Shown here: positions 473 through 21,538 of the stretch, piece by piece | How the letters are laid out: each line of letters begins with the position of its first letter | Numbering within the stretch: position 1 is the first letter of the stretch | Assembly (NCBI RefSeq): GCF_011393335.1 | Contig: NZ_CP049865.1 | Span: 1,444,722-1,508,721 of the forward strand | Direction: 5' to 3' | Source of the DNA: Propioniciclava coleopterorum | GTDB taxonomy: Bacteria; Actinomycetota; Actinomycetes; Propionibacteriales; Propionibacteriaceae | Length of the DNA: 64,000 nucleotides | Notes under the pieces: generated by a model | The model's database searches: none | What the model was told of the DNA's origin: nothing | What the model saw: the letters and a program-made list of their open reading frames with translations, nothing else | Made by a program: the position numbers and the translations under genes

Positions 473-1201
473 GTGACCAGCGACCAGCCCGCCGAGCCGG
501 GACGCCTGCGCGTCGGGTTCGTCCCCGGCGTCACACTCACCAAGTGGCGGACGCGGTGGCACGACCGGTTCCCGCGAGTCGACCTGGAGGTGGTCGAGGT
601 CCCCCAGGCCGAGCAGCGCCGCGTCCTGGACGCCGGCGAGGTCGACATGTGCTTCGTCCGGCTGCCCCTGGACACCGACGGCCTGCACCTCATCCCGCTG
701 TACGAGGAGGTCCAGGTGGCCTGGTCCTCCAAGGACCATCCCCTCGAGGCCGTCGACACCCTCACCCTGGCCGACCTGGCCGGCGAGGTCGTCCTGACCG
801 AGGTCACGCCCGACACCCTGCAGACCGCGGCGTTCGCGGACGCCGTGCTGGTGGCGCCGCTGGGGGTCGCCCGGCAGGAGAGCCGCCGCGACATGGTGCA
901 CCGGCCGATCACCGACGCCGAGCCGACCCGCATCGGCCTGGCCTGGCACGTCGACGACGATCACCCCTGGATCGACGAGTTCATCGGCGTGGTCCGCGGC
1001 CGCACCGCGAACAGTTCCCGCTCGGCACAAGAGCGTTCGGCGCAGGAGCGCGCCGACTCTGAGGGCCCGGGGGCGTCCCGCGGAGAGAGCCCGGCACCCG
1101 GACGCGGGGCGGGTCGTCCGGCGCCCGGCCGGGCACCGCGGCACCGCTCGGGTCAGCGTCCGGGACGCCCACCCCGCGGCGGCCGCAGCCGGCGTCGCTG
1201 A
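473..1201 (+). CDS. LysR substrate-binding-domain protein lacking the DNA-binding domain
   Basis: The 242-residue product starts at GTG 473. Residues 12-180 read as a LysR-type effector-binding domain: an RLRVGFVPG opening strand, a VDMCFVRLP segment, and a hinge-like stretch before a second lobe. The usual N-terminal winged helix-turn-helix is absent. The last 60 residues form a low-complexity Arg/Gly/Pro tail that could bind nucleic acid. It is divergent from the DUF5997 gene. It could act as a small-molecule sensor working with a partner, but that role is inference. The accessory island begins right after its stop. Confidence 0.8.
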   Translation: MTSDQPAEPGRLRVGFVPGVTLTKWRTRWHDRFPRVDLEVVEVPQAEQRRVLDAGEVDMCFVRLPLDTDGLHLIPLYEEVQVAWSSKDHPLEAVDTLTLADLAGEVVLTEVTPDTLQTAAFADAVLVAPLGVARQESRRDMVHRPITDAEPTRIGLAWHVDDDHPWIDEFIGVVRGRTANSSRSAQERSAQERADSEGPGASRGESPAPGRGAGRPAPGRAPRHRSGQRPGRPPRGGRSRRR

Positions 1202-1203
1202 CG

Positions 1204-1530
1204 GCCCACGGGCCGGGGCAGCCTTCGCTGACCGCGGAGGAGTTCGGCGTCGTCCATGCCGCCCTGAGCAAGTACTTCCGCTGCCTCGTGGTCGACACCG
1301 GTAACAGCACCCGTGCCGAGAACGGCAAGCAGCAGTCGCGATCGCCGACGGGATCATCGTCCCAGTCAAACTCCGCCCTGATCACATCGTCCCTGCTGCA
1401 CGCATGATCCAGGGTCTCCGCGACGCTGGTGAGGACGTGGACGACCGAATCATCCTCGTGGTCTCGTGCGGCCCTGACGATCGCCACATCCTCCCGCTCG
1501 AGAGGCAGAAGCTCTTCACCGAGCTGAACC
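1204..1530 (+). pseudogene. ParA/MinD-like ATPase remnant
   Basis: Two adjacent frames join into one ParA/MinD-like stretch: the first reads LTAEEFGVVHAALSKYF then CLVVDTGNSTRAEN, and after a frame change near 1331 it continues VAIADGIIVPVKLRPDHIVP. The D-T-G-N-S-T-R segment resembles the Walker B region of plasmid and conjugative-element ParA proteins. The nucleotide-binding N-terminus is missing and the C-terminus runs into oppositely oriented relaxase DNA. It is a truncated, frameshifted remnant of mobile-element partition or mobilisation machinery. It marks the left part of the accessory island. Confidence 0.55.
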
Positions 1531-3085
1531 TAGACAGGCTCCCCTGCTCGGCGTCCCCACCGATCCGGTCCTCAATCGAGGATCCGAACTGCGGTGGGCC
1601 GACCTCCGCCCCGCGACGCGCGATGCGTACTCCCGTCTTGGTGCTGCCGCACTTCTGACAACCCAGAGTTCCTCGGCGGAGTCCACCGCGGCTCCCAGGA
1701 GACGGGTGACGTCCTCCTGCAGCTGGGCCTGGTAGCGGCGGGCGTCCTCTTGGACGCAGGGCCGGCCAAGCAGGGAGGGATCGTGGTCGTCGACGTCGTG
1801 CCAGGCTCGCCAGACAGCCACCCTGGACAGCAGGTCACGATTGTCGGCCAGCAGCAGCGCCCAGACGGGCATCTCGTCCTCGGACATGGTGTGGAACTCG
1901 CTGCTGAGGCGAGCGGCCTGCGCGTCGACCTGCACGGCGCGGGCGCTCAGGTAGGGGCCCCAGACGGGGTGGGCACTCAGAGCCTTGGGGGACCGCTGAG
2001 CCACGGCAGCGGGCCCGCCGCGCCCAGGGTGAGCCTCCACTCCACTACGGCGGCGCGATCGCGCGCGTCGCCGATCGGGCGGGCGTGGGCCGCGTCCTCG
2101 AGACAAGCGAGCGGGTCCTGCCCACTGAGCTGGAGCACCGCCAGGGAGCCCTGCAGCCGGTCGCACGACAACTGGTCGGTGATGCCGGGCACCATCAGCT
2201 CGGCCGCGCTGCGGTACTGCGCGAGGCGGTCGACGCCGACCTCGGCGGCCGCGCCGTAGAGCAGCGCGTCGCTGAACACCTGCGCCTCGCGGCGCAGCAG
2301 CACCTTGGCCGACGCCTCGGTGAGGGCGTAGGTCGTGGCCGACTGCCCGGCCCCATCCCGCTCGATGATCGTGCGCAGCACGTCGTGGCTGGCCAGCGGG
2401 CTGACCACCGGCCGGATCCACGATCGGGTTGTCGCTGGGCCCACTCGGGGGCACGTAGACGTGGTTCTCGCACCGTCCTCGGGTCAGCGCGACGTAGAGG
2501 AGCTGACGAGATTCCGACCCGCCCACCGCAACGTGGCAGGTGTCCACCGTGGCGCCTTGAGCGCCGTGAACGGTGGTCGCGTATCCCAGGTCGAGTTGCT
2601 CACGCACGTACCAGTCAGGCATCCGCAGTGTCGCACCGGCGCGCTCGTGCTTGAGTGTCAGCGTGCCGTCCTCGTGGACGGTCTGCGCGACCCAGCGATC
2701 GCCGTTGCGCACATAGTCGTTCGCCGTGTAGCGGAGGACCCGGCGGTTCTTCCTGGTGATCACGACGTCGCCGGCCGACGCGTACAGGCCGGAAGCGAGC
2801 TTCACTTGCTGCTTGTCCGGGACGACAGTGCCGCCCAGGCGCAGCGATCGGGCCACCGAGTTCAGTTCGTTGACCCACTCGCGAGAGGGGCAAGCATCAG
2901 CGAGGTGCGGCCAGCATCGCGGTCGGCGGCCCACGCAGCGAACACGGCGCCGAGCTGGTCGCTCTCGTCGCTGACGTGCACGCGCCCACGGTCGAGGTAG
3001 AACCCCAGCCCGGAGACGTCGCCGTCGCGAATGGCAGCGTCGCGGTGCCATCGGCCTGGTCCTTGAACCAGACGCTCATCATGGT
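1516..3085 (-). pseudogene. MobF relaxase/TraA helicase C-terminal remnant
   Basis: The reading moves through at least three frames. It contains the helicase C-terminal motifs of MobF/TraA relaxases: a GYATTVHGAQGATVDT motif followed by LYVALTRGR near 2460-2560, then SATTYALTEASAKVLLRREA and a C-terminal region that includes SAHPVWGPYLSARA. The relaxase domain and first helicase motifs are absent. One frame change coincides with a five-G run at 1987-1991. This is the tail of a conjugation or mobilisation gene left behind by deletion. It points to a former integrative or conjugative element. Confidence 0.7.
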
Positions 3086-3176
3086 GACCCACGATCCCGC
3101 AGCCGCCACATACGCACATCGCCGCCTCGTACTGGCCGACGGGAGACTGGTGGGCGATGAGTCACGAAGTACTTGA
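3070..3176 (+). pseudogene. C-terminal stub of an ABC transporter ATPase
   Basis: A short plus-strand frame ending at 3176 reads IMVTHDPAAATYAHR and then LVLADGRLVGDE. This is the H-loop and C-terminal strand of LolD/MacB-type ABC ATPases. Only about 34 codons remain. It lies exactly where the oppositely oriented relaxase remnant begins, so it records a rearrangement junction. No promoter or start of its own is evident. Confidence 0.55.
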
Positions 3177-3331
3177 GAGCGCCGGGCAAGAACGGAGATC
3201 TGGCCTAGCTGTACTGATCGGTCCGGGCCGCCAACTGCAGGGGCCGAGGCGTTTGCGCCACCGTAACTCCAGCACCGGCCGCACGATCGGGGGATTTCCG
3301 GGCTGGCGATGCGGCTGGCTGGACCGATCCG

Positions 3332-3800
3332 TCATCGACTCGCCGGCACGCGAGGCTGGGGTTGGTCACCGGCGGCGCTGTGGGGTCGATGGTAGTTGTA
3401 GTGGATCAGCCAGCGGGAGATGGCGTCGCTGCGGTGTTCCTCGCTGAGCCAGGGATGGGCGTAGAGCAGCTCGTTGGCCAAGATTCGCTGGTAGCGCTCG
3501 ACCTTGCCGTTGTGCCGGGGCGTGTGCGGCCTGGTGCGTTGATGGCGTGAGGCGAACGAGTGAACCGCGCGGGTGAAGTCGTTGGCCCGGTAGCAAGAAC
3601 CGTTGTCGGTCACGATCCGGGTGAAGCGGGTGATGCCGTGCGCAGCGAACCAGACTTTGGCACGGAACAGGAACCCGATTGCGGTCACCGCCCGCTCATC
3701 GGGCAGTGCCTCGGTGTAGGCCAGTCGGGAGTACCCGTCGGCTGCCGAGTGTAGGTAGGTGTAGCCGGCCTTGGCGCCGGCAGTTTTGGCATGTTCTACT
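3332..3800 (-). pseudogene. IS481-family transposase fragment
   Basis: The minus-strand frame keeps the middle and C-terminal parts of an IS481 DDE transposase: AGYTYLHSAADGYSRLAYTE (first Asp region), RIVTDNGSCYRANDFTRA (second Asp), RTRPHTPRHNGKVERYQRIL (Glu), and the C-terminal HYNYHRPHSA. The N-terminal helix-turn-helix half is lost. At about 3790-3800 the sequence switches to an IS3-type transposase on the other strand. It is therefore a dead fragment in a chimeric transposon graveyard. Confidence 0.8.
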
Positions 3801-4206
3801 CGATGGACCGACGGATGACCTCGACGCTGGCGGTTGACGCCCTCAAGATGTCGGTTGCCAGGCGTGGTGGCCGCTCGAACGTAACCCGCTGCCAGGTACA
3901 TTCGGACCGAGGATCGCAGTTTCGTTCCCGCCGCTTCGTGGAGGCGATCAGGGCCAATGGCCTAGTCGGATCGATGGGCAGAGTCGGTGCTGCTGGCGAC
4001 AACGCGGCCATGGAGAGCTTCTTCGCCTTGTTACAGAAGAACGTCCTCAACCGTTGCCGTTGGCGCTCGTTGAGCAACTTCGCCTGGCCATCGTGACCTG
4101 GATCGAAGGCACCTACCACCGTCGACGCCGCCAAGCCCGCCTGGGACCCTTGACTCCCATCGAGTACGAACTGGTTCAATCAACCCAGGTGACCATCGTC
4201 GCCTGA
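3791..4206 (+). pseudogene. IS3-family transposase (orfB) C-terminal fragment
   Basis: The plus frame reads YSMDRRMTSTLAVDAL, VHSDRGSQFRSRRFVEAI and GDNAAMESFFALLQKNVL, the second Asp and Glu regions of an IS3-type integrase core. Near 4057 the frame shifts and continues with EQLRLAIVTWIEGTYHRRRR and ends LTPIEYELVQ to a stop at 4206. The N-terminal part is missing. It abuts the reversed IS481 fragment, so neither element can move on its own. Confidence 0.75.
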
Positions 4207-4375
4207 GAAACCGTGTCAACCAAACGCGAGGCAGACCCGACGTAGGCCACGATGAAGTACGGGGCGGCGCGCTTGAGGGTGGGGTTATCCATGACTCGGC
4301 GCTACCGGCCGCGACCGACATTCTTCGATGCGCCCTGGCACAGGTGACCGGCGGAGACATGTCGACGCCGCGTCG

Positions 4376-5014
4376 TCAGGGCAGTGCGCTGGCGTCGACC
4401 AGGTCGGCGTCGTGCTGCAGGGCGTCTCCCTGGGCCAGCCACGCGAGTGAAGCGATCTCGCCGCGCAGGACGCGGCCCACGACCTGACGACTCAGCCCGG
4501 TTTCCTCGGCGATGAGCGTCTGTGCGACACCCTGGGCGTGCAGCTCGTGGATCCGCGCGTGCTGCCGGGGCTGGACGCGGGAGGGGCGCCCCAGCGGCTT
4601 CCCAGCGGCCCTGGCTCGCTGCAGGCCTGCACGGGTGCGCTCGGCGATCAGGTCGCGCTCGAACGCGGCGAACGCACCAATGATGCTGAACAGCAGTCGA
4701 CCACTGGGCGTGGTCGTGTCCAGCATCGACTCGGTGAGGGAACGGAACTCGACGCCGCGATCGCCCAGCTCCGAGATGAGGCCGACGAGGTGCGCGAGGG
4801 ATCGGCCGAGCCTGTCGAGCTTCCACACGACCAGAACGTCGCCCGGCTCGAGCTGGCCAAGGAGCCGGCCCAGGCCGGGACGGTCGCTGCGCACCCCGGA
4901 CGCGTGGTCGGTGATCAGGTGCTCCTGCTCAACGCCGGCGGCCACGAGTGCATCGTGCTGCAGGCCGGGATCCTGATCGGCTGTACTGACTCGGGCGTAC
5001 CCCCACATAACCAT
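4376..5014 (-). CDS. serine recombinase (resolvase/invertase family)
   Basis: The protein opens MVMWGYARVSTADQD, with the catalytic serine at about residue 10. It has the family motifs LDRLGRSLAHLVGLI, a long helix-E region (PSGRLLFSIIGAFAAFERDLI) and a C-terminal helix-turn-helix ending in a VGRVLRGE helix. Length is about 212 residues, normal for Tn3-resolvase/Hin-type enzymes. I chose the ATG at 5014 because upstream ATGs add non-conserved residues. It makes staggered cuts through a 5'-phosphoserine link at a resolution or inversion site. A stem-loop at 5149-5171 lies upstream. It may derive from a transposon now fragmented around it. Confidence 0.85.
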   Translation of the reverse strand: MVMWGYARVSTADQDPGLQHDALVAAGVEQEHLITDHASGVRSDRPGLGRLLGQLEPGDVLVVWKLDRLGRSLAHLVGLISELGDRGVEFRSLTESMLDTTTPSGRLLFSIIGAFAAFERDLIAERTRAGLQRARAAGKPLGRPSRVQPRQHARIHELHAQGVAQTLIAEETGLSRQVVGRVLRGEIASLAWLAQGDALQHDADLVDASALP

Positions 5015-5148
5015 GCCCGAAAGATAGGCCATCCAGACGGTTTCGAGCAGCAACACACTGAGCAGGGGTTTCGAGCAGGACGTCGCGCCTCACCGGTCCC
5101 GACGCGTCGACGTCGTGGGCCGTGCCCGAAAGCGTTCGTCAATGGGCA

Positions 5149-5171
5149 GCCGGCCCGACTAACCGGCCGGC
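5149..5171. repeat. 7-bp stem-loop between recombinase and ABC cassette
   Basis: GCCGGCC and GGCCGGC are separated by nine bases. The hairpin lies between the recombinase promoter region and the 3' end of the permease gene. It could be a weak terminator or part of a recombination site. No other sub-site could be identified by eye. Confidence 0.3.
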
Positions 5172-5227
5172 AGCGAGTACGGCACCAACGCGATCCGCCA
5201 CGCGATTGAACAACGCCGCAGCCCGAG

Positions 5228-6310
5228 TTAGGGGATGCGTAGCTCCCTCACTGGCTCCCGGCGGCTGGCGAGCACTGCTGGCACTAGCGACGTGAGCAGT
5301 GCTGCTGTCATGGTGAGGAGACTCAGGGCTCCAACGAACGTCCAACCAGGCTGAGAGCCGCCACCGGCAATGAGAAGGGCGCATGCGGCTCCGACGCCGC
5401 CTGCGATACCGGCGAGGGTGACGATCAGGGTCTGCAGCAGGACGAGAGTGACGATGAGGGATCGAGTGGCACCCAGTGCGCGCCGTCGTCCGTAGTCCTT
5501 GCGCCGCAAAGTGACCAGGCCGGCCTGCAGTGCGCCGATGACGATGGACGCCGCTCCCACGAGGACGATGACGAGCCCGCGAGAGAATGTCGCCAATTGG
5601 GTTTCGATGATTGCTCGCAACTCGGCAAGTGCTCGGCTGGTGGTGATGGTGACTTTGTCCGGCTTGTCGGGACTCAGGAGTGAGCTAACCACTTCGGTCA
5701 GGGGCGCAACGAGGCCGGGGCGTTCGGCAATGACGACCACGACACTGACGTGCTCCTCTCCCGTGGATGTCGCTGGCATGAGCACCAACGGCTCGAAATC
5801 GGCCAAGAACTGAACCTCCGTGGCGGCTGGAACGACACCAATGGTTTCCCCTGTGGTGAGGGAGATCGCTCCTGACCCATAGGGCATGCCGAGTAAACGA
5901 AGGGCTGATGGTGAGGCGTAGGCGGTTTGCTCCAGGGGTCGTTCGGGCAGGCCTACCGCGGTGGGGTCGCTGGTGTAGAGCCGACGGAGTGGCACGCTGG
6001 GCGCGGAAGCAAGGTCGGCGTTGTGGCCGTCAATGATCTGCGAGAACGCTCCTACCCAGGACACGCCCTGGACGCTGGCCATGCGGTTCAGGAAGGCGGT
6101 CGTCACGCCTGAGCCGGGCTCTGCTCGCACCGTGATGGATCGGCTTCCAGCTTGGTCGATGCTGCTGAGGACTTGCTGTTCAGCAGCGATGGAGCGCCCT
6201 GATGTGAGGATGACGGCTGCGATCATTCCGGCGACGACCATGAACGTCAGGATCGTGGACGCTGCCTGGCTTCGAAGTGAGGCGATCGCTTCCCGGACGA
6301 CGGCGATCAC
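5228..6310 (-). CDS. FtsX/MacB-type ABC transporter permease
   Basis: This 360-residue membrane protein has the FtsX/MacB layout: one N-terminal membrane helix (about 18-40), a large extracytoplasmic domain (about 45-240) and three C-terminal helices (about 245-275, 290-315, 325-350). A short GATRS-like coupling motif lies between the helices. Its ATG overlaps the stop of the ATPase gene by four bases, so the two are translationally coupled. A single four-helix permease would act as a homodimer. It is the last gene of a five-gene minus-strand cassette. MacB-like exporters move peptides, lipids or drugs outward or work mechanically on envelope proteins; the substrate here is unknown. Confidence 0.85.
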   Translation of the reverse strand: MIAVVREAIASLRSQAASTILTFMVVAGMIAAVILTSGRSIAAEQQVLSSIDQAGSRSITVRAEPGSGVTTAFLNRMASVQGVSWVGAFSQIIDGHNADLASAPSVPLRRLYTSDPTAVGLPERPLEQTAYASPSALRLLGMPYGSGAISLTTGETIGVVPAATEVQFLADFEPLVLMPATSTGEEHVSVVVVIAERPGLVAPLTEVVSSLLSPDKPDKVTITTSRALAELRAIIETQLATFSRGLVIVLVGAASIVIGALQAGLVTLRRKDYGRRRALGATRSLIVTLVLLQTLIVTLAGIAGGVGAACALLIAGGGSQPGWTFVGALSLLTMTAALLTSLVPAVLASRREPVRELRIP

Positions 6311-6960
6311 AGGCGAACCTCTCGGTCACACTGGGCGGCGACCTCGGCGGAATGGGTGACCACGATGGCCAAGCCTCCGCTGTCGGCGTGCGCCCGCACT
6401 GCGTCGATGACGATGCGGCTGGTTTCCGAATCGAGGTTTCCGGTGGGTTCGTCGGCGAGCAGGATCGCCGGCTCACTCAGCAATGCGCGGCACAGAGCGA
6501 TGCGTTGAGCCTGGCCACCAGACACCTGCCCTGGGCGGCGATCGATCGGGACATCGACTTCCAACTGAGTCAGCAGTTCCACGACCCTCCTCCGTGCCTG
6601 AGGCCGGCTGCTCCCGCGGTAAAGAAGCACTTCGGTGATGTTGTCGAGAACAGTCCGGGTCGGGTCTAGGGCTGCGTCCTGGAAGATGAACCCGAAGAGC
6701 TGCGCCCGCATCCTTGACCGTTCAGCATCACTCATGGCCTCGGCGTTGCTGCTGCCCACCCACAGTTCGCCACTCGTCGGGCGCAGCATGAGCCCTAGCA
6801 GGTACAGCAGTGTAGATTTCCCCCGCCCCGAGCGCCCGGTGATGGCGGTCATCGTGCCAGGTTCAAAGCGTTCCGACCAACGGTCCAGGATCACAGGGGA
6901 GTCGCGCTGGTAGGAGAAGGTGAGGTTGCGCACCTCCAGGGTGAGGGCTGAGTGCGTCAT
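6307..6960 (-). CDS. ABC transporter ATP-binding protein (LolD/MacB type)
   Basis: The 217-residue ATPase has Walker A GRSGRGKST (42-50), a Q-loop near FIFQDAALDP (91-100), signature VSGGQAQR (146-153), Walker B AILLADEP (165-172) and the H-loop VVTHS (200-204). An Arg stands where most relatives have Ser in the Walker A loop (GRSGRGKS). The start is the ATG at 6960, which overlaps the upstream adaptor stop (ATGA). It powers the adjacent FtsX-type permease. It belongs to the five-gene overlapping operon from 8865 down to 5228. Confidence 0.9.
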   Translation of the reverse strand: MTHSALTLEVRNLTFSYQRDSPVILDRWSERFEPGTMTAITGRSGRGKSTLLYLLGLMLRPTSGELWVGSSNAEAMSDAERSRMRAQLFGFIFQDAALDPTRTVLDNITEVLLYRGSSRPQARRRVVELLTQLEVDVPIDRRPGQVSGGQAQRIALCRALLSEPAILLADEPTGNLDSETSRIVIDAVRAHADSGGLAIVVTHSAEVAAQCDREVRL

Positions 6961-8060
6961 TGCTTCTGGATACGGACTCGTAGCCCGCGTTCCACGCCCT
7001 CGATGACCGACATTCCACGGGCCGAGGCCACGACGTGAACAGCGCGCATGGCCCCGCCCTCGTCCACCACAGCCACCTCGCCATTGAAGCCAGACACCAA
7101 GCTTGATGAGGGGACCACGAGCCCCGATCGCGTGGGAACGGTGATCACTTTCGCCGCCAGGCGCGTCTCGCCGTTCACGGCGAGCGATCCGCACTGATCA
7201 GCGCAGATCGAGCTTCCGGTAGCCACCAGTGGCACCACCACCAAATCAGGGCCCTCGCCTGCCCGTGGTGCGCCCGTTACGGCGTCCCATTTCTCCCCTT
7301 GTGGCCCGGTCAGTTCCACGACCGTGCCCTCGGGGATCAACGACCGCTGAGACGTCGAGACCGGCAGCTCGAACTCGGGTGCATCACCCAGCACCGACAA
7401 GGCCTCTTCGCCACCGGATAGCTGCTTGCCCACGGCGACGGCCTTGGGATCGAGGGCCACCCGCGACGGCAGGTCGGGGAGAAACACGATGTCTCCGGCC
7501 TCGACCCTCCCGGTCACTGGCAGCATCAGTCTGCGCTGCCACGCGCGGATCGCTGCCTCCGTTTTGCTGTCCACCCGGCCGTTGATTGAACCCTGGTACA
7601 GGCTCAGATCTCGAAGCATTCGCTGCACTTGAGCGACATCGTCTCCACGATCGCCTGGTCCGATCGGGCGAAAGGCCGGCACTGCACCCTCGCCTGCCAC
7701 CACAGGCCGGAGACCTACCGTGTACAGGGCACTCCCCTGGGTGACATTCGTTGCTCCCTCCGCGATCCGCGAGGTCACGACACCCGAAGCACGGTTCACA
7801 CCAGCAGACGTAGTAGGCCACCGCGCGATCGCGTTCAAAGAAATGGAGGACCCCACTTCCCCGTCCACCACTTCCACCAACACATGGTCGTTGCTCTCCA
7901 GCGGGTTCGCTGCCGGCCTCATCACATAGCTAGCCGCCCACACCGCAGCACCACCCAGAACGACAGAAACCAGCACGGTAGCAACCCACGGCCACCAGCG
8001 TGGCCCAGCAGGCGGAAGCCGCGACTCGCCTATCGGGCCCACGGAGGCACTTCTGGACAT
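6957..8060 (-). CDS. membrane-anchored peptidoglycan-binding adaptor (efflux periplasmic-adaptor-like)
   Basis: The 367-residue protein has one N-terminal membrane segment (about 23-46) and then an extracytoplasmic domain. A PG_binding_1-like module spans about 130-190 (GDRGDDVAQVQRMLRDL, then AIRAWQRRL). The C-terminal part has beta-barrel-like stretches typical of HlyD/MacA-style adaptors. I chose the ATG at 8060; the frame is open further upstream but that would run deep into the lipoprotein gene. It overlaps the lipoprotein 3' end by 31 bases and the ATPase by four. It probably links the transporter to the cell wall. Its wall-binding module is a feature of adaptors in Gram-positives that lack an outer membrane. 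Confidence 0.75.
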   Translation of the reverse strand: MSRSASVGPIGESRLPPAGPRWWPWVATVLVSVVLGGAAVWAASYVMRPAANPLESNDHVLVEVVDGEVGSSISLNAIARWPTTSAGVNRASGVVTSRIAEGATNVTQGSALYTVGLRPVVAGEGAVPAFRPIGPGDRGDDVAQVQRMLRDLSLYQGSINGRVDSKTEAAIRAWQRRLMLPVTGRVEAGDIVFLPDLPSRVALDPKAVAVGKQLSGGEEALSVLGDAPEFELPVSTSQRSLIPEGTVVELTGPQGEKWDAVTGAPRAGEGPDLVVVPLVATGSSICADQCGSLAVNGETRLAAKVITVPTRSGLVVPSSSLVSGFNGEVAVVDEGGAMRAVHVVASARGMSVIEGVERGLRVRIQKQ

Positions 8061-8533
8061 AGGTCCTTGAACTTCTTGTACACCTCGAACATCTGGTCGT
8101 CTGGAACGTCGTCGTATGGCCGCCAAGCGCCCTTGGCCTCCGACCAGGCCTGATAAGACGGCGCGGCAGGAAGATCCACCCCACCGTTCACCAAACACAC
8201 CCGAGTTTGAACGTAGAAGTCGTAGTACTTGCGCCGGTCCGGCTCGGGCATTTCGTCAAAGGTAGCGCCCTTTGGCGCCAGAGCCCAGCACTCCTCAGAA
8301 GCCTTCTCATACTGCTCCTTCTGAGCGTCAGGGACCGGGCCGGACGCGATGCCCCCATCACTAATCTCGACTTGCCACCCCCGCTCAGCCATGCATTCCT
8401 TCACCACCTGGAGCGGATCAGTTCGAGAGCCGTCGGGTGTCGTCGTCGCAAGTGATCCCCCTGCGGAGCAGCTGACCAGGAGCAGTACCGGGATCACCAC
8501 CCCACAGGGGAACCAGCGATTCACAGACCGCAC
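8030..8533 (-). CDS. predicted lipoprotein of the ABC cassette
   Basis: The 167-residue product has a signal peptide with a lipobox LLLVSC (lipidated Cys about residue 22) followed by a Ser/Thr/Gly linker. The mature part is acidic, with four further cysteines (about residues 47, 82, 113 and 159) that could form two disulfides. I do not recognise the family. The gene overlaps the small secreted protein by 13 bases and the adaptor by 31, so it is co-translated with both. It may be an immunity or substrate-capture lipoprotein for the transporter; that is inference from position. Confidence 0.75.
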   Translation of the reverse strand: MRSVNRWFPCGVVIPVLLLVSCSAGGSLATTTPDGSRTDPLQVVKECMAERGWQVEISDGGIASGPVPDAQKEQYEKASEECWALAPKGATFDEMPEPDRRKYYDFYVQTRVCLVNGGVDLPAAPSYQAWSEAKGAWRPYDDVPDDQMFEVYKKFKDLCPEVPPWAR

Positions 8534-8865
8534 CCTCTCGAGGCAGCCTTGATCTCTTTGCTGGCAGGAGTCGTGACGTTACCCTCCAAGAGGTTAACCC
8601 AACCCCAGTTCTTTCCGTGCGTCGCTTCGGTGAATCCGCCGCCTTGCCAGCTCTGGTACCACCAGCCGCTGTAGCCCCGAACCGCATGGGTCACGGTGAA
8701 TGATGCTGCGGACGCCTGAACGCGCGAAAAGGTGGACGCATTGTAGTTCGGGCAGGTGATGGAGCCAAAACTACGGACATCTGCCGCAGCAGTGGATACG
8801 CCGACACTAAGCATTAGCCCAGCGGCGGCAGCCACTGCCAAGCCGGCTCTCGCTAGATTATTCAA
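8521..8865 (-). CDS. small secreted protein, first gene of the ABC cassette
   Basis: A 114-residue preprotein with a clear Sec signal peptide: NNLARAG, a hydrophobic core, and an AAA cleavage region about residue 28. The mature part, about 86 residues, is rich in Trp, Gly and Ser, and has one Cys near its start (ITCPNY) and one at the C-terminus (RGCGL) that could pair. The start is TTG at 8865; a strong Shine-Dalgarno lies eight bases upstream, and the in-frame ATG alternative would stop after three codons. It heads an operon with a lipoprotein, wall-binding adaptor, ATPase and permease, an arrangement used by secreted bacteriocin systems. It does not match lactococcin 972 motifs that I know. 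Confidence 0.75.
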   Translation of the reverse strand: MNNLARAGLAVAAAAGLMLSVGVSTAAADVRSFGSITCPNYNASTFSRVQASAASFTVTHAVRGYSGWWYQSWQGGGFTEATHGKNWGWVNLLEGNVTTPASKEIKAASRGCGL

Positions 8866-9347
8866 TGGACATACCTCCTTCCTTGCACCTCGGCGCCATG
8901 CGCAGAGTGAACCTCCGCCTGGAGGTGTTTAGGGAGACTATCCTTGGAAGAGGGGACTTGGCTAGGGCTCGTGCAGCCACCCACAAGACACTTCAGATCC
9001 CAGGGCTCCAAGAAGTTGCTCGTGCTCTGCGAGGGGAGCTTCGGACGAAGCACGTCTAGGTCACCCGGTGGGATTGGTCGCCTTTTGGACAAAGCCCGTT
9101 TCGCGTAGCGGGCATTTCGTCTCTGGGCGATGTAGATCGACGGTGCATCTGGGGTCGTACTGGCACATTCTGTCCTCATGGGGTGTAGGCCACCCTCCAG
9201 TAGAGACGGGTCCGCACCAGAAAGCGAATCGCGGGCAGCTGCGAGTGAGCCTGGTGGCCGGGGTCGCCCTCGCCCAGCGGGGTCATCGTGGTGGGGCCTC
9301 ATCACCGCCCGGCTACGGCCCCGCGTCGCTGTCTCGGCGTCGAGGAG
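8866..9347. other. 480-bp gap with no convincing gene
   Basis: Open frames on both strands here are short, without ribosome-binding sites or recognisable protein features. The right part should hold the promoter of the secreted-protein cassette. A short inverted repeat (GCCCG and CGGGC around 9104-9124) is the only structure I noticed. Confidence 0.4.
8874..8880 (-). promoter_or_regulatory. strong Shine-Dalgarno deciding a TTG start
   Basis: On the minus strand AAGGAGG lies eight bases before TTG 8865. It is the strongest ribosome-binding site in the cassette. It fixes the start of the small secreted protein and suggests high expression of that first gene relative to the overlapping ones behind it. 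Confidence 0.6.
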
Positions 9348-10493
9348 CTAGGCGCGCCCCATGCGCTTCCGCGCGTCGGTAGCTGCGCGGTCGATGCTGC
9401 GAAGGTACCTGGCGTCCTTCAAGGTGCGTCCGGAGTACAGCGTCATGGTCCTCCTCCCAGCCATCAAGTCGGTGATGAGCATGTCGCTGAGCTCCTCGGG
9501 CGTCAGCATCTCGTCCGACTCGGCCGAGATCGTGGGCAGGCCGGCGACGGCGACCAGGTAGGGGCCGAGGGCGTCCCAGGCATACGACTCGGGCTGCATC
9601 GCGGCGACAGCCCCCGCGTAGAGCATGCTGGTCACGAACCCGGGGTTGCCGGCGAGGGGGTTCACCCACGACACCGGGGGCTCGGACTGCTCGTTCTTCG
9701 ATGCCTCGATCATGGCGACCGCGTGCTCGATGGTCTTGGCTTTCGCCGCCGGGATGGTCCAGTGCCTTCGCGCGAAGGTCGGGTGCTGGCGCGCGAGGGG
9801 GTCCAGTCGATACGCGACGGTGGGCCTGTCGGGGTGGGCGGGCTCGCTGGCCCAGACTCCGTCATCGCCGGCCGTTACCACCGTGCGGCCGTCCCCGAGG
9901 TACACGGCGGCCGCGATCGTCCGCTGCTGCGGGCCGAGAACCATGGCACAGGTGGCCCAGCCCGAGCGCATACCCATCGCCCTAGCCTGGTTTGAACCAT
10001 CAAGGGGGTCGACGACCGCGACCCTGCGGCCTTCCCTGAGCAGCTTCCGCAGGTACTCGCCCCGGCGAGTCGGTCCATCCTGAAGCGGCCGGAACTGATC
10101 CTCCTCACCGAGGATCTCCACGTTCCCGTACGTGCGCGCCGTGTACTCCATGGCGGTCCACGCGATGATGTCGTAGCCGATGGCAGCCTCGCCCTGGAAG
10201 TCCGGGACGCTCTCAGCGAAACCTTCGTAGTAGAGGTCGAGGTTCAGGCCGGACGCCAGCTGATCCTCGCGCTGCACCTTGCGGTTCCGGAGACCCTCCA
10301 GCGCGGCATCGACATCGGACGGGGACTGGGCGGCCGCCACGCTGTTCCCCAGGGCTTCCGCCTCCTGGATGTCCCTCCCGTAGGTCTGCAGGAGCTCGGC
10401 GCGGCGCACAGCGATGAAGCCGGCGTGGGCGAGCGCGTAGGCGATCCTCTCGTTCAAGGAGGCGTCGTGGTGGAAGCGGTGCAGATCGGACAT
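9348..10493 (-). CDS. inositol monophosphatase/FBPase-superfamily protein
   Basis: The 381-residue protein has the metal-binding motifs of the lithium-sensitive phosphatase superfamily: an EILGEEDQF segment (about 128-136), VVDPLDGSNQARAMG (about 162-176) matching the DPxDGT/S motif, and a late WDALGPYLVAVAG helix matching the WDxAA motif. It is longer than bacterial SuhB enzymes, with about 80 extra N-terminal residues and a long insertion before the last motif. It should remove phosphate from a sugar or cyclitol phosphate with Mg2+. The precise substrate is not evident. It lies alone in the accessory island, which may indicate a role in nucleotide or sulfur metabolism (CysQ-like) or a mobile-element function. 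Confidence 0.75.
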   Translation of the reverse strand: MSDLHRFHHDASLNERIAYALAHAGFIAVRRAELLQTYGRDIQEAEALGNSVAAAQSPSDVDAALEGLRNRKVQREDQLASGLNLDLYYEGFAESVPDFQGEAAIGYDIIAWTAMEYTARTYGNVEILGEEDQFRPLQDGPTRRGEYLRKLLREGRRVAVVDPLDGSNQARAMGMRSGWATCAMVLGPQQRTIAAAVYLGDGRTVVTAGDDGVWASEPAHPDRPTVAYRLDPLARQHPTFARRHWTIPAAKAKTIEHAVAMIEASKNEQSEPPVSWVNPLAGNPGFVTSMLYAGAVAAMQPESYAWDALGPYLVAVAGLPTISAESDEMLTPEELSDMLITDLMAGRRTMTLYSGRTLKDARYLRSIDRAATDARKRMGRA

Positions 10494-10672
10494 GGCTCCT
10501 CCTAATTACACGAGCGTCGTTGCTCCCGACGAACCCTATCCGTCGCGCACCATGTGTTACAACCCTTCATCACACCTCGACACTCCGTAGCTAGATGTTT
10601 GCGCGAACTGGCAGTGGCGCGTACCTTGGTGGCAGCGATGGTGGACCCCATCGACAACAGAAACCCCTAGCC

Positions 10673-10705
10673 CCGTGCGTCCTCTCCCTCGGAGAGGGCG
10701 CACGG
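10673..10705 (+). promoter_or_regulatory. 15-bp hairpin with T-run in the leader of the RHH gene
   Basis: CCGTGCGTCCTCTCC pairs with GGAGAGGGCGCACGG across a 3-base loop, with a single G-U pair. Five T residues follow at 10712-10716. The ribosome-binding GGAG (10717-10720) comes directly after the T-run. It looks like an intrinsic terminator or attenuator placed just before the start codon. Confidence 0.5.
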
Positions 10706-10726
10706 CATAACTTTTTGGAGAACCAG

Positions 10727-10954
10727 ATGTCCGTGTCCCGAGTGCTCTCAGTCCGATTCACCGACGAGGAGTACCAGGCGTTGCAGTCGATGAGCATGGT
10801 GACCGGCTCGACCACGAACGCCCTCATCCGGCGTGCCGTCAACGAGATGGCCGATCGAGCCCCTGAGGATCCCGACTTCCTGCGCCAGACTGAGGAGCTG
10901 AAGAGCCGTCTCAGCGAGGCTGGAGCCGTGCTCCGCGCCCGCGTCTCCGCATAG
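10727..10954 (+). CDS. ribbon-helix-helix (CopG-like) small protein
   Basis: This 75-residue protein starts MSVSRVLSVRFTDEEYQAL, a beta strand followed by the first RHH helix. The second helix is TTNALIRRAVNEMAD, the usual layout of CopG/Arc/mobilisation-accessory repressors. A C-terminal helix (about 50-72) may support oligomerisation. I chose the ATG at 10727 because GGAG lies six bases upstream. The leader contains a terminator-like hairpin. It may autoregulate a mobile-element function or be a stranded antitoxin. No toxin partner is visible beside it. Confidence 0.7.
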   Translation: MSVSRVLSVRFTDEEYQALQSMSMVTGSTTNALIRRAVNEMADRAPEDPDFLRQTEELKSRLSEAGAVLRARVSA

Positions 10955-11039
10955 CCCAGTCCATCAAGGGTGATTCACCCCACGTCGGGGCTCGCGGCGC
11001 TCAACGCGCTAGATCCAGTTCGTCTCATAGCGTGGCCTC

Positions 11040-11291
11040 ATGACTCGCAAGGTGTCCGACTTCGGCTCGCTGCAGGACCGGATCGCGGCGCCGCAGTCCC
11101 TCAGCGAGAGCCGTGCTGCTCATGTCGACGTCGAGCTGGACGGCGAGTGGACGCCGGGGCTGCTGGCCGGGTGGCGGCGCGCCGCTGACGGAGCCTGGTG
11201 GGGCCGGGTCGCCGTCGTCCAGGGCGACGACTTCATCGTGCTGGACCTCATCGCCACCCGCGTGCGGCCCGCGTCGTCGTCGGGGCGCTAG
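11040..11291 (+). CDS. small hypothetical protein, 83 residues
   Basis: A short soluble protein with no recognised domain. Its core has Trp-rich segments (EWTPGLLAGWRR, GAWWGRVAVV) and the end is FIVLDLIATRVRPA, consistent with a small beta-barrel fold. A bidirectional hairpin terminator follows within 11 bases of the stop, supporting a real transcription unit. Function is unknown. Similar short genes are common cargo of actinobacterial integrative elements. Confidence 0.55.
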   Translation: MTRKVSDFGSLQDRIAAPQSLSESRAAHVDVELDGEWTPGLLAGWRRAADGAWWGRVAVVQGDDFIVLDLIATRVRPASSSGR

Positions 11292-11301
11292 ACGCAGACG
11301 A

Positions 11302-11326
11302 GGGGCGATTCCAGTGGAATCGCCCC
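11302..11326. terminator. bidirectional terminator hairpin
   Basis: GGGGCGATTCC and GGAATCGCCCC form an 11-bp perfect stem with a 3-base loop. It lies between the stops of two convergent small genes and can serve both. Confidence 0.7.
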
Positions 11327-11342
11327 TCCCCCGCCGCTGGCG

Positions 11343-11645
11343 CTATGCGTCGCCCTGGAGGCTGGCGTTGATCAGGCCGATGATCTTGGTCTTGCCCGAC
11401 GCCCCGCCCTGCGGGCTGTGGAGGAACCGACCCAGGAACACCGCGACCTCGGCGGCGGCGTCCGCGCGGCTCGCGTAGGGGCCCGTCCAGGGGGTGCCCG
11501 AGTAGAGGACGTTGTAGTGGATACCCGCACGCCACGCCCAGCCCATCGGGATGGGGGCGATCCGGAAGCGGACGTCGTACATGCCAGCCCGCAGCTGGGT
11601 GGGCTCGACGCCGGAGGCCTCGGCTGCGTCGCGGATCTCGACCAT
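11343..11645 (-). CDS. hypothetical protein; start unclear, reading extends upstream
   Basis: The conserved-looking part reads PTQLRAGMYDVRFRIAP and WAWRAGIHYNVLYSGTPWTG. The same frame stays open upstream to a stop near 11830 and encodes plausible protein (ITIRLQYDLFGEIEAAEQAA), but I find no ATG, GTG or TTG in that extension. Either translation begins internally at 11645, a rare start is used, or the 5' end carries a frameshift. The family is not recognised. It sits in the accessory island, convergent with the 83-residue gene. Confidence 0.45.
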   Translation of the reverse strand: MVEIRDAAEASGVEPTQLRAGMYDVRFRIAPIPMGWAWRAGIHYNVLYSGTPWTGPYASRADAAAEVAVFLGRFLHSPQGGASGKTKIIGLINASLQGDA

Positions 11646-11941
11646 CCACCGCGGTAGGTCCGCCCCGCGGCAGATGGCGTTGCGCAGCTGAGCGGCTTCG
11701 GCGGCCGCGGTGGCGTGCTGGGCCGCGTGCAGCGCAGCTGCCTGCTCGGCGGCCTCGATCTCGCCGAACAGGTCGTACTGGAGGCGGATCGTGATGGGGG
11801 GTTCGCCTATGCCCCTCTGTTAGATGATGGAACATGCCACATTCAGCTCTGACGGAGGACTGTCTGAGCGACTTGACAGACTGGTGACCGAACACCCCCG
11901 AGAGGCACCCCCATGACTCCCCGCCCCCGTCCATCGCCGGT

Positions 11942-12759
11942 GTGACCTACACCCGTGGCCAGCGACCGGGGCGGCTGGGAGTGGCGTGGAGGATGTGCTG
12001 GTGGGCCCTCCAGGCCTTCGAGGGCAAGGAGGGCGACCTGCCCTCCCAGCTGGCACAGCTCGGCTGGTATCTCCTGGCGTTGATCCTGACGCTCCCGCGC
12101 TTCGCGATCTGCTCGTGGTACGTGAGCAGTAAGCGCGCCCGGACCTACCTGACCGAAGACGCGGTGCTGGTCGTCGCGGCCACCGCCCGCGACTGGCAGA
12201 TCGGCGAGCACGTCGCGCGCAAGAGGGAGCGGGGCAGGGAGCGGCCCTGCGCAGCCTGGTCATCGGACCCCTGATCGCCGCGGCCGACGCCGCCGGGGTC
12301 GACGTCGTGGCCACGGCGGCGTCCTGGGAGCTGGCAGCCCGCTACGAGGCCGACGTGCCCGGCCTCACCCCCGTGGTTGCGGCCTGGCCCTACGGGATCA
12401 AGATGCAGCGCCGGCCAGGCGGCACCAGCGTTAGTGTCGAGCCGACGCCCCGGCACTCCCCGCGGGAGGTGTTCGACTGGGCCGGTCGCATGCAGGGCTG
12501 GACGCTGGTGTCTGGCGTCGGTTGGCTGGCGTTCATGGGGTTCGTGGTCTTTCGCTCCCTCGCCCCGGCATCGAGTGACGGTGAGGCGCCGATCGGGCCC
12601 CACGATGCGGTGCTGGCCCTGACCATGGGGGTGGTGCTGCTGGTCAACCACGCCCTCGAGCTGCGGGTGATCAGCAAGGCGAAGGACGCCACCAACACCC
12701 GCACCGTCAGCGAGGACGACTTCCGCGCGGCTGTGGCCGCCCCGTTACCTTGCTGGTGA
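11942..12759 (+). CDS. GNAT-like/membrane hypothetical protein, frameshifted at a G run
   Basis: Two overlapping frames become one 272-residue protein if one G is restored to the GGGG run at 12231-12234. The repaired junction reads RERGQGAALRSLVIGPLI, which resembles the acetyl-CoA-binding loop of GNAT acetyltransferases. The N-terminal third has a hydrophobic stretch (LAQLGWYLLALILTLPRFAI) and the C-terminal part has two more membrane-like segments. Start is GTG 11942. The combination of a GNAT-like loop with membrane helices is unusual and the assignment is tentative. It is immediately upstream of the IS110 element. Confidence 0.45.
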
Positions 12760-12775
12760 CCCCGTTGGTCGGGGT
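12759..12775 (+). terminator. small hairpin after the GNAT-like gene
   Basis: ACCCCG and CGGGGT flank a 5-base loop directly at the stop codon. No T-run follows. It could end the upstream gene or be the first stem of the IS110 left end. Confidence 0.35.
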
Positions 12776-12966
12776 TACGGTCGCTGGGCCCGGCATGACT
12801 TACTGCCCCTGTCGTACGAATGATCCGGGGGGTGTTGTCACCGGGCCTGGTGGCGCCAGATGACCGCTGATAGGGACACGGCCCAGCAATGAGGTCTCGT
12901 CGTAACGTGGGTGCCGGCAGCTGACGCATCACCAGCCCACGACGACCGTCGCTGCGATGCAAGGAT
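12776..12966 (+). ncRNA. candidate IS110 bridge RNA region (left non-coding end)
   Basis: About 190 bases of structured non-coding sequence precede the IS110 transposase. Established knowledge: IS110-group elements carry a bridge RNA in the non-coding left end that specifies target and donor DNA. Seen here: a stem formed by CGTC and GTGGG at about 12900-12912 with CCCAC and GACG at about 12937-12946, separated by a 5-base bulge and an apical loop. Exact RNA ends and the target- and donor-binding loops cannot be fixed without the empty site. Confidence 0.35.
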
Positions 12967-12975
12967 GTGGTCGTC

Positions 12976-14202
12976 ATGGAGAAACAGATCGGCTTCGACA
13001 TCTGGTGCGGGCTGGACGTGGGCAAACAAGCCCATCACGCCTGCGCGCTGGATGCTGCCGGCAACAGGGTCTTCGACAAGCCGCTGCCTCAGGACCAATC
13101 CAAACTCGAGGACCTGTTCGGCAGGCTGTCCGAACACGGCCGGGTGCTGATGATTGTGGACCAGCCCAACACGATCGGGGCTCTGCCGATCGCTGTCGCC
13201 CGATCGATGGGCATCACCGTCGCCTACCTGCCCGGGCTGGCAATGCGCCGCATCGCCGACCTCCACCCCGGGAACGCGAAGACCGACGCCCGCGATGCTT
13301 TCATCATCGCTGATGCCGCTCGCACCATGCCCCACACCCTGCGCCGGGTCGATGTCGGCGAGGAAGCCTTGGCCGAACTGAAGGTCCTGGTCGGCTTCGA
13401 CGACGACCTCGCCGCCGAAGCCACCCGCCTGTCCAACCGCATCCGCGGCCTACTGACCCAGATCCATCCCGCATTGGAACGCGTTGTCGGACCACGATTG
13501 ACCACCAAGCAAGGCCTCGCAGTCATCGAGCATCTCGGCGGCCCCCAAGGCATCACCGCAGCGACGAAGTCACGCCTGCTGCGCATCGTCACCAAGGCGA
13601 ACCCGCGCGGCGCCCAGTCCTTCGCAGACGCCATCACGACCGCCCTCGCCGAGCAGACCGTCGTGGTCGCCGGCACTGCCGCGGCAGAGAAGGTCCTGCC
13701 CAAACTCGCTGCCTCCCTGCGCCAGACCCTGGAACAGCGAGCCGAATTGGCCCTCCAGGTCGAGAAGGTCGTTGATGACCACCCTCTTGCCGAGGTCCTG
13801 ACCTCGATGCCAGGCGTCGGGGTCAGGACCGCAGCACGGATCCTGCTCGACATCGGCGACGCCAGCTCATTCCCCACCGCCGGACATCTGGCCGCCTACG
13901 CCGGCCTCGCGCCAGTCACCCGCCGCTCGGGGACCAGTATCCGGGGCGAGTTCCCCGCCCGGTCAGGCAACAAGCACCTCAAACGAGCACTCTTCCTTTC
14001 CTCGTTCGCCGCGCTCAGATCTGACCCCGCCAGCCGCGCCTACTACGACCGCAAACGAGCCCAGGGCAAGAAGCACAACGCCGCCCTCATCTGCCTGTCC
14101 CGTCGCCGCTGCGATGTCCTGTTCGCCATGCTCAGGAATCGAGAGCCCTACAGGGCTCCCGCCCCAACACCAGAACCCTCACCCCGACCTCTGGCCACTT
14201 GA
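12976..14202 (+). CDS. IS110-family transposase (DEDD type)
   Basis: The roughly 408-residue protein has the N-terminal RuvC-like DEDD domain (GLDVGKQAHHACALD near the start; NAKTDARDAFIIADAAR in the middle). The C-terminal Transposase_20 domain contains LTSMPGVGVRTAARIL and the segment GLAPVTRRSGTSIRG, which carries the conserved serine. A coiled-coil-like linker lies between. The ATG at 12976 is ten bases after AAGGA. It is full length and unbroken, in contrast to the other transposase genes in the island, so it is likely recent. It should work with an RNA encoded in its upstream non-coding end. Confidence 0.92.
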   Translation: MEKQIGFDIWCGLDVGKQAHHACALDAAGNRVFDKPLPQDQSKLEDLFGRLSEHGRVLMIVDQPNTIGALPIAVARSMGITVAYLPGLAMRRIADLHPGNAKTDARDAFIIADAARTMPHTLRRVDVGEEALAELKVLVGFDDDLAAEATRLSNRIRGLLTQIHPALERVVGPRLTTKQGLAVIEHLGGPQGITAATKSRLLRIVTKANPRGAQSFADAITTALAEQTVVVAGTAAAEKVLPKLAASLRQTLEQRAELALQVEKVVDDHPLAEVLTSMPGVGVRTAARILLDIGDASSFPTAGHLAAYAGLAPVTRRSGTSIRGEFPARSGNKHLKRALFLSSFAALRSDPASRAYYDRKRAQGKKHNAALICLSRRRCDVLFAMLRNREPYRAPAPTPEPSPRPLAT

Positions 14203-14210
14203 CGAGGAAC

Positions 14211-14220
14211 ATAGGGACAC
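14211..14220 (+). repeat. decamer ATAGGGACAC, second copy (first at 12870)
   Basis: The same ten bases lie upstream and downstream of the IS110 transposase gene, 1,341 bp apart. The repeat is short. Its position at both non-coding ends is the reason to record it. Confidence 0.4.
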
Positions 14221-14313
14221 CCCCCCGCACCATCATGTGGACGCGCACCCTCGCCCTTGCTCGTGGGCGTGGTCGCGGTCTTCGTTCCGGGCCTCGCGGT
14301 CGCCGGCGGTCGC

Positions 14314-14997
14314 TCAGACGTCGAGCACCAGCGGCTGGCGGTTGTCGTCGGCCACCTTGGCGATGTCGATGAACAGCGCCAGGCCGTAGGTGCCGGCGGC
14401 CACCAGATCGGTCATGTCGGGCTCGTCCGAGGACATGATGTTGAGCATCGCCTCATTCATGCCCAGCGCGGTGGCGAGGTTGGCCAGCTCGATCCGCAGC
14501 CCGGTGACGGTCCCCATCGTGACCGTGCGACCGTCGGGCGCCTTCGCGGAGAACACCGCGGGCACGCCGGAGATCGGCAGCCACCACTGGACGCCGCTCA
14601 GCAGCGTCGCGTACCGGGTCGGGGCGGCGGTGGCCGCCTGGAACGCCGCGGACGCGCCCGGGTCGAGCGGGTCGTCGGTCGGCTTGCGCCGGGAGAACAG
14701 TCCGCCCTTCTTGGGCATCAGGTCGGGCTGCTCCTGGTAGGCGGCCAGCAACTGCAGGCCGCCTACCCCCGCCGCGCGCGGCGAGGACGTCCAGTAGGTC
14801 AGGTCGGAGCGTTCGGCCCAGGGTTCGCCGCCGCCCAGCTCGGTGAGCAGCGACGCCTGCCAGATCAGCGTCCGCTCCAGCTCCTGGCCGTCGAAGCCGC
14901 CGGGGGCGGTCTCGGGGTCGGCCCGCAGTTGCTCGGCGGTCTTCCAGTCGCCGCTGAGGTAGCGGGTCAGCGAGCCCGCGTACAGATCGAATGCCAT
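14314..14997 (-). CDS. conserved hypothetical protein, 227 residues
   Basis: It begins MAFDLYAGSLTRYLSGDWKT and is soluble, with no signal peptide or membrane segment. Alternating hydrophobic helices and a C-terminal GLALFIDIAKVADDNRQPL segment suggest an alpha/beta fold. I do not recognise the family. The gene lies just outside the IS110 right end and before the ABC-F gene, in the first stretch of core-like sequence. No regulatory element is evident. Confidence 0.65.
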   Translation of the reverse strand: MAFDLYAGSLTRYLSGDWKTAEQLRADPETAPGGFDGQELERTLIWQASLLTELGGGEPWAERSDLTYWTSSPRAAGVGGLQLLAAYQEQPDLMPKKGGLFSRRKPTDDPLDPGASAAFQAATAAPTRYATLLSGVQWWLPISGVPAVFSAKAPDGRTVTMGTVTGLRIELANLATALGMNEAMLNIMSSDEPDMTDLVAAGTYGLALFIDIAKVADDNRQPLVLDV

Positions 14998-15219
14998 GGG
15001 GTGTCCTCTGCTCGTGGTCGGGGGTCGTCGGAGGGGAGGCGTCGGGACGGCGAGCCGTCCACACCCGGGCAGCGTAGCCGGTCACTCGCCGGCGAGGTCC
15101 TGGGTCCGCGCCCCCGAGGTCGCCTGCGCCCCCGGATGCGCCTACGGACGCGCCCCGCTCGCCGCCGGCAGTACGCGACCACCAACGAGGTACGGACGCC
15201 CCCGCGTGCGGACGCGGCG

Positions 15220-16929: not shown

Positions 16930-16993
16930 GTCACGCCACCCTTCCACATCGGCGCGTCCGCGGGGCGCTGCGGCGCATGGGGCGTCCGGGAGA

Positions 16994-17416
16994 TCAGTCC
17001 GCGGCGTCCGACCCCTCGAACCGCTCCAGACCGACCGCCTTGCGGAGTTCGTCGCGGTCCCGCAGCAGGTCGCGCTCGCTCGCGTCCGGATCGTTCAGGT
17101 GCTCCATCAGGTCACCCAGCCCCTGCGCGAGGGCGTTGAGCTTGTGCTGCACCGCCAGATCGCTGCGCGACGAACTGTTCTGAAGGAGCGCCACGAGCAG
17201 GAAGGTGATGATGGTCGTCGCGGTGTTGATGATCAGCTGCCAGGTGTCCACGTCGCGGATCAGCAGGATCGACGGCGCCCAGACCAGGATGAGCACCACG
17301 CAGAACGCGAAGAAGACGGCGCGACTGGTGAGCCGGCCGGCGAACCCGGCGAACCGGTCGAACGGGCCGATGCGCCGCGACACCTCCGAGGGAAGTTCGG
17401 GGACGCGCGCGGCCAT
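16994..17416 (-). CDS. low-affinity iron permease family small membrane protein
   Basis: About 140 residues. Two hydrophobic helices (AVFFAFCVVLILVWAP, then LIINTATTIITFLLVALLQN) and the following charged helix with NALAQGL fit the low-affinity iron permease family (PF04120 type). The INTxTTIITF segment is the most diagnostic. The start is taken at the ATG at 17416, since upstream residues look non-conserved. Bacterial members are small and of uncertain transport function. It is transcribed in the same direction as the ABC-F gene 65 bp downstream. Confidence 0.75.
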   Translation of the reverse strand: MAARVPELPSEVSRRIGPFDRFAGFAGRLTSRAVFFAFCVVLILVWAPSILLIRDVDTWQLIINTATTIITFLLVALLQNSSSRSDLAVQHKLNALAQGLGDLMEHLNDPDASERDLLRDRDELRKAVGLERFEGSDAAD

Positions 17417-21440: not shown

Positions 21441-21538
21441 ACCCTCGCGCCGCCTCGGCCCCCTCCCGCGGCGCGCCGGCCCGTTCGCCCGGCGCGTGAC
21501 CCGTGGGAAATGTCGGGGCGGGCTGGCAGGCTGAACGC

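Follow-up and report, generated by a model that had tools for sequence, protein, structure and literature searches.

Gene content and setting of the cassette

The window analyzed here is a stretch of 64,000 nucleotides of Propioniciclava coleopterorum. Near its beginning, between positions 5228 and 8865, the minus strand carries a cassette of five genes, all of them present and transcribed from 8865 down to 5228. The features are the following:

8873..8880, minus strand: AAGGAGGT, ribosome-binding site of gene 1, separated from its TTG start by 7 bases (read from the sequence)
8521..8865, minus strand: gene 1, small Sec-secreted protein, 114 aa, TTG start
8782-8865, minus strand: predicted signal peptide of gene 1, 28 aa
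8524-8781, minus strand: mature part of gene 1, 86 aa, with Cys10 and Cys84
8030..8533, minus strand: gene 2, lipoprotein, 167 aa, lipobox LVSC
6957..8060, minus strand: gene 3, membrane-anchored adaptor, 367 aa, predicted MacA/BesA-type membrane fusion protein fold
7485..7682, minus strand: peptidoglycan-binding domain of gene 3, residues 127-192 (PG_binding_1; match to the SleB N-terminal domain)
6307..6960, minus strand: gene 4, ABC ATPase, 217 aa, with intact Walker A, signature and Walker B motifs
5228..6310, minus strand: gene 5, FtsX-type permease, 360 aa, GTG start

An initial annotation had described the five genes as overlapping by 4 to 31 bases, and this is what we find: 13 bases between genes 1 and 2 (8521-8533), 31 between genes 2 and 3 (8030-8060), 4 between genes 3 and 4 (6957-6960) and 4 between genes 4 and 5 (6307-6310). 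The strong ribosome-binding site and the TTG start that it gave to gene 1 were found as well, and the TTG start is supported by the homologue in Propioniciclava soli YIM S02567 (G099), of the same genus as the host, which has an ATG at the same position.

There is a single copy of the cassette in the host genome. It is flanked by IS3-type integrase-core fragments, a serine resolvase, a NikA-like protein and an IS110 transposase, and the G+C content is 64-68% from 2 to 14 kb of the window versus 70-79% beyond. A LysR-type gene and the large gene at window position 21503 are 3.9 kb apart in a relative (G087) and 20.3 kb apart in the window, indicating that the cassette sits in an insertion. With reference to that relative, the insertion covers roughly 16 kb (window 1200-17000) and contains the IS3 fragments, the resolvase, the NikA-like gene and the IS110. 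The "mobile island" proposed before stands as regards the mobile-element genes around the cassette, but the cassette is not exclusive to the island and recurs in other genomes. Next to it (window 9348-10493) we observed a 381-aa protein with no Pfam match, phosphatase-like by eye, of which none was found in 12 other genomes of the genus searched.

The small secreted protein

Gene 1 and its relatives have an N-terminal hydrophobic segment with an AxA-type site, a pattern of Sec type, with no double-glycine leader. The predicted signal peptide leaves a secreted product of 86 residues with two cysteines, as had been annotated. The small proteins have about 80 mature residues and little in common beyond one cysteine near each end; in the alignment of 35 mature sequences the cysteine located about 10 residues from the start and the one near the end were both invariant. 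Gene 1 gave no match above the cut-off in Pfam or NCBIfam, in agreement with the earlier remark that it matches no recognized bacteriocin family, and none in PHROGs or PADLOC. When the 35 small proteins were compared with Pfam and NCBIfam, none of them (0/35) matched any bacteriocin or plausible family. An AlphaFold2 model of the mature protein built with 34 relatives was beta-rich, but at a pLDDT of 45 it carries no confidence.

Similar-looking C-terminal motifs had brought up the lactococcin 972 family as a candidate. However, 0/35 sequences matched PF09683 or TIGR01653 at E values up to 0.1, and the profile-profile comparison (hhalign) with four actinobacterial Lcn972 sequences gave a probability of 0.3%. 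By sequence, the cassette is not a member of the lactococcin 972 family.

The lipoprotein, the adaptor and the pump

The lipoproteins form one family, characterized by the lipobox and four further invariant cysteines. It has no named relative, gene 2 having no match over the curated cut-offs of Pfam and NCBIfam. The lipoprotein of the window is 56% identical to the one paired with the gene 1 homologue in P. soli (a copy cut by the end of the contig) and 42% identical to an orphan copy in the same organism.

Gene 3 combines one N-terminal helix with PG_binding_1 (E 1e-12), matching the membrane anchor and wall-binding module of the initial annotation. Its model is confident (pLDDT 92.8) and shows a membrane fusion protein fold, with Z scores of 13.1 to BesA and 11.0 to MacA, while residues 127-192 correspond in the model to the N-terminal peptidoglycan-binding domain of SleB (Z 11.7, rmsd 1.3 Angstrom). 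The model has no long helical hairpin; besides the anchor there are only short helices (12-13 residues) in the peptidoglycan-binding region. The adaptor is thus predicted to be a membrane fusion protein of the MacA/BesA type with an inserted peptidoglycan-binding domain. It also has a CxxxC pair (residues 286 and 290), predicted to lie outside the membrane and invariant in 59 of 59 aligned adaptors.

Gene 4 matched ABC_tran (PF00005) over the cut-off. The best NCBIfam model for this ATPase was TIGR03608 (lactococcin-972 ABC), below its cut-off, and its PADLOC matches were put down to generic ATPase similarity. Gene 5 matched FtsX (PF02687) over the cut-off and had weak PDB matches to MacB-like permeases.

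Distribution and gene order

The initial annotation had named the lack of a conserved gene order as a finding that would refute its proposal; the order recurs in dozens of genomes, patchily distributed across the Actinomycetota. Among 394 genomes of the class, the adaptor profile separates a tight group scoring at least 296 bits from general peptidoglycan-binding adaptors scoring at most 144 bits. This tight group is accessory: at E 1e-60, 33 of the 299 genomes in G517's family have it (a family that we take as Microbacteriaceae because the Clavibacter, Mycetocola and Subtercola contigs belong to it), and in a phylum sample it was found in 5 of 346 genomes. Named hosts include Microbacterium, Salinibacterium, Agromyces, Mycetocola, Subtercola, Arthrobacter and Cellulomonas, together with a Stackebrandtia MAG and Acidimicrobiia MAGs. 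One copy is held by the mobilizable Clavibacter plasmid pCL-A6099; gene 1 itself appeared on no plasmid in the plasmid search. The next annotated gene after the cassette of pCL-A6099 is a signal peptidase I gene, lepB (L177, 11818-12450), and the small gene and lipoprotein gene that precede it are missing from the PLSDB gene table.

Two gene orders were found. In the window and in most lipoprotein-bearing loci the order is small gene-lipoprotein-adaptor-ATPase-permease, and in the second one adaptor-ATPase-permease-small gene-lipoprotein. In both of them the small gene is directly 5' of the lipoprotein gene. Leaving out three implausible ORFs, we counted this arrangement at 41 loci out of 101 distinct ones, 31 with the first order and 10 with the second. 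Small secreted-type ORFs with two cysteines are more frequent upstream of the adaptor than expected by chance: the 152 kb upstream of homologous adaptors contained 39 of them, versus 23 in 881 kb of the opposite strand. A further 19 were located elsewhere on the same strand of these loci, 11 of them just after the permease, which corresponds to the second gene order.

At many homologous loci the pump has no detected small gene; such loci may be orphans or misses of a heuristic detector. One of them, on contig C45 of P. soli (L051), was read by eye and contains the lipoprotein and pump genes with no small gene. Conversely, some Subtercola loci have the small gene but not the lipoprotein. Taken together, these two situations suggest that the pump may have wider roles.

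Several variants of the locus deserve mention. In Subtercola and related genomes (L105, L144, L146, L149, L167 and L168) a small secreted gene precedes the adaptor with no lipoprotein, and some of these loci have, between the two, a short ORF of about 57-78 codons. Tandem extra lipoprotein genes were observed in L066, L068, L083, L100 and L148, as if immunity genes accumulate, and L083 has a whole second pair of small gene and lipoprotein in tandem. LuxR-like regulator genes were seen by eye just upstream of the adaptor in L161 and L163.

Diversification of the small protein and the lipoprotein

Comparing homologous cassettes, we show that the sequences of the small protein and of the lipoprotein next to it have diversified in step, against a conserved pump. 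The sharpest evidence comes from three close relatives (L066, L068 and L173), with adaptors 87-91%, ATPases 92-96% and FtsX permeases 80-94% identical. Their mature small proteins are only 35, 38 and 73% identical, and the paired lipoproteins 53, 51 and 81%. For L066/L068 the upstream DNA is 92% identical up to a point inside the signal-peptide region, where the similarity stops, to return at the lipoprotein. Over 43 cassettes, a few of whose small ORFs may be wrong calls, the similarity of the small proteins was correlated with that of the lipoproteins once the similarity of the adaptors was removed (partial r 0.25, reached in 0 of 2000 permutations).

This pattern bears on what the cassette is for. 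An FtsX-type permease beside a wall-binding domain, and the frequent pumps with no detected small gene, could be understood if an FtsEX-like complex with a wall-binding adaptor answered or cleared wall stress and the small protein were a wall component or an inhibitor. We consider such envelope maintenance improbable, given that the accessory distribution and the plasmid copy do not fit housekeeping, and neither does a divergence that looks like replacement and is limited to the lipoprotein and the mature part of the small protein.

In pheromone systems, allele-specific secreted proteins and their surface receptors are pairs that co-diversify, as seen here for the small protein and the lipoprotein. 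The small protein might accordingly be a pheromone, sensed or imported via the lipoprotein and the ABC complex. However, neither a sensor kinase nor a transcription factor belongs to the conserved unit, a pheromone of 86 residues would be a large one and the MacB/FtsX type of transporter is an outward one, so that we regard signalling as very improbable. The initial annotation had left the choice between an antagonistic and a signalling system with its own MacB-like machinery. The patchy distribution and the localized co-diversification favour antagonism, and the MacAB-like parts are indeed there.

Comparison with known systems

A close parallel in organization is the lactococcin 972 family (PF09683, TIGR01653), including streptococcin B and mediterrocin. 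In both cases a small protein is exported by Sec, with a Sec-type signal peptide and no double-glycine leader (for gene 1 from the pattern only), and the neighbouring genes code for a LolD/FtsE-type ABC ATPase and a membrane protein that resembles FtsX. The mediterrocin precursor has 114 aa, as does gene 1, with a mature form of 89 aa, and is itself only 18% identical to Lcn972 (PMC12345188). The differences go beyond the lack of family matches and of profile-profile similarity mentioned above. The cassette has two invariant cysteines in its small protein, an extra lipoprotein and a peptidoglycan-binding adaptor, and its FtsX protein of 360 aa, with no TIGR01654/DUF1430 match, is not the seven-TM protein of about 700 aa of that family. 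The actinobacterial Lcn972 operons compared here (L182 and L183 among them) encode the precursor, a ~695-aa membrane protein and the ATPase, with neither adaptor nor lipoprotein. The reference for the beta-sandwich fold of lactococcin 972 is 2LGN, next to which the beta-rich model of gene 1 has to be read at its pLDDT of 45.

The pump shares with MacAB-type systems (MacAB-TolC; Spr0693-0695 of Streptococcus pneumoniae) the LolD-type ATPase, the FtsX-type permease and, as modelled, the membrane fusion protein adaptor. Unlike in them, the modelled adaptor includes a peptidoglycan-binding domain and lacks a long helical hairpin, there is no outer-membrane channel, and the genes are tied to a diversifying secreted protein and lipoprotein. 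In LanI/LanFEG lantibiotic immunity a lipoprotein gene also lies beside the gene of the secreted product and is accompanied by an ABC transporter, which resembles the small gene-lipoprotein neighbourhood of the 41 loci. Here, however, the permease is of the FtsX (PF02687) and not the LanFEG type, the conserved unit shows no modification enzymes and the lipoprotein belongs to a family without named relatives. Altogether, the cassette fits a system that would work like a Sec-dependent bacteriocin with ABC-linked immunity, built from MacAB-like parts. None of the open-licence papers that we searched describes it, which does not prove its absence from the wider literature.

A proposed bacteriocin and immunity system

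We propose that the cassette is probably an undescribed bacteriocin with its own self-protection (immunity) system. Gene 1 is a Sec-type precursor whose relatives recur beside genes 2-5. Signal peptidase would release the mature protein (~86 residues), one disulfide would join its two ends, and the product would attack the envelope of related bacteria. The lipoprotein would bind the cognate bacteriocin at the outer face of the producer's membrane, and co-diversification of the two fits a bacteriocin with its immunity lipoprotein. The ATPase and the FtsX-type permease would act like MacB, with the MacA-like adaptor tied to peptidoglycan, and drive the bound peptide off the membrane, into or through the wall.

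The MacB-like machinery is therefore present as annotated before, but it is more likely to serve immunity or clearance than export, because gene 1 has its own Sec signal. Streptococcin B, which is lactococcin-972-like, was secreted without either of two dedicated exporters, supporting Sec (PMC11796350), and this points in the same direction. An adaptor with a peptidoglycan-binding domain would also suit a device reaching into the wall: once Sec had exported the protein, a wall-anchored MacAB-like complex would collect it on the outer side of the membrane and force it across the thick wall, the lipoprotein acting as its chaperone. Substrate and chaperone would co-diversify too. We find such a release device unlikely, since it is at odds both with the case of streptococcin B and with the orphan lipoprotein-pump set of P. 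soli, which is as expected of immunity genes. We also put forward, tentatively, a broader version of the bacteriocin proposal: all across the phylum there would be a distinct class of hypervariable bacteriocins, exported by Sec and with one disulfide linking their two ends. Protection would come from a lipoprotein that can be swapped and from a MacAB-like pump, tethered to the wall, which would strip off bound bacteriocin or drive it out through the peptidoglycan of single-membrane bacteria.

If the bacteriocin and immunity proposal is right, an overlooked family of antibacterial proteins would be added, and looking directly 5' of this lipoprotein family would be the route to more members. The cassette would also be a concrete system in which to study the role of the ABC genes found next to Sec-secreted bacteriocins. 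Besides, the adaptor suggests a way in which a MacA-like protein may do its work where there is no outer membrane, namely by taking hold of the wall.

Finally, upstream of the gene 1 homologue on contig C25 of P. soli (L050, 4325-7608) there is what may be a further bacteriocin-like locus, in which the gene of a different small secreted protein (113 aa) precedes those of two membrane proteins and an ABC ATPase.
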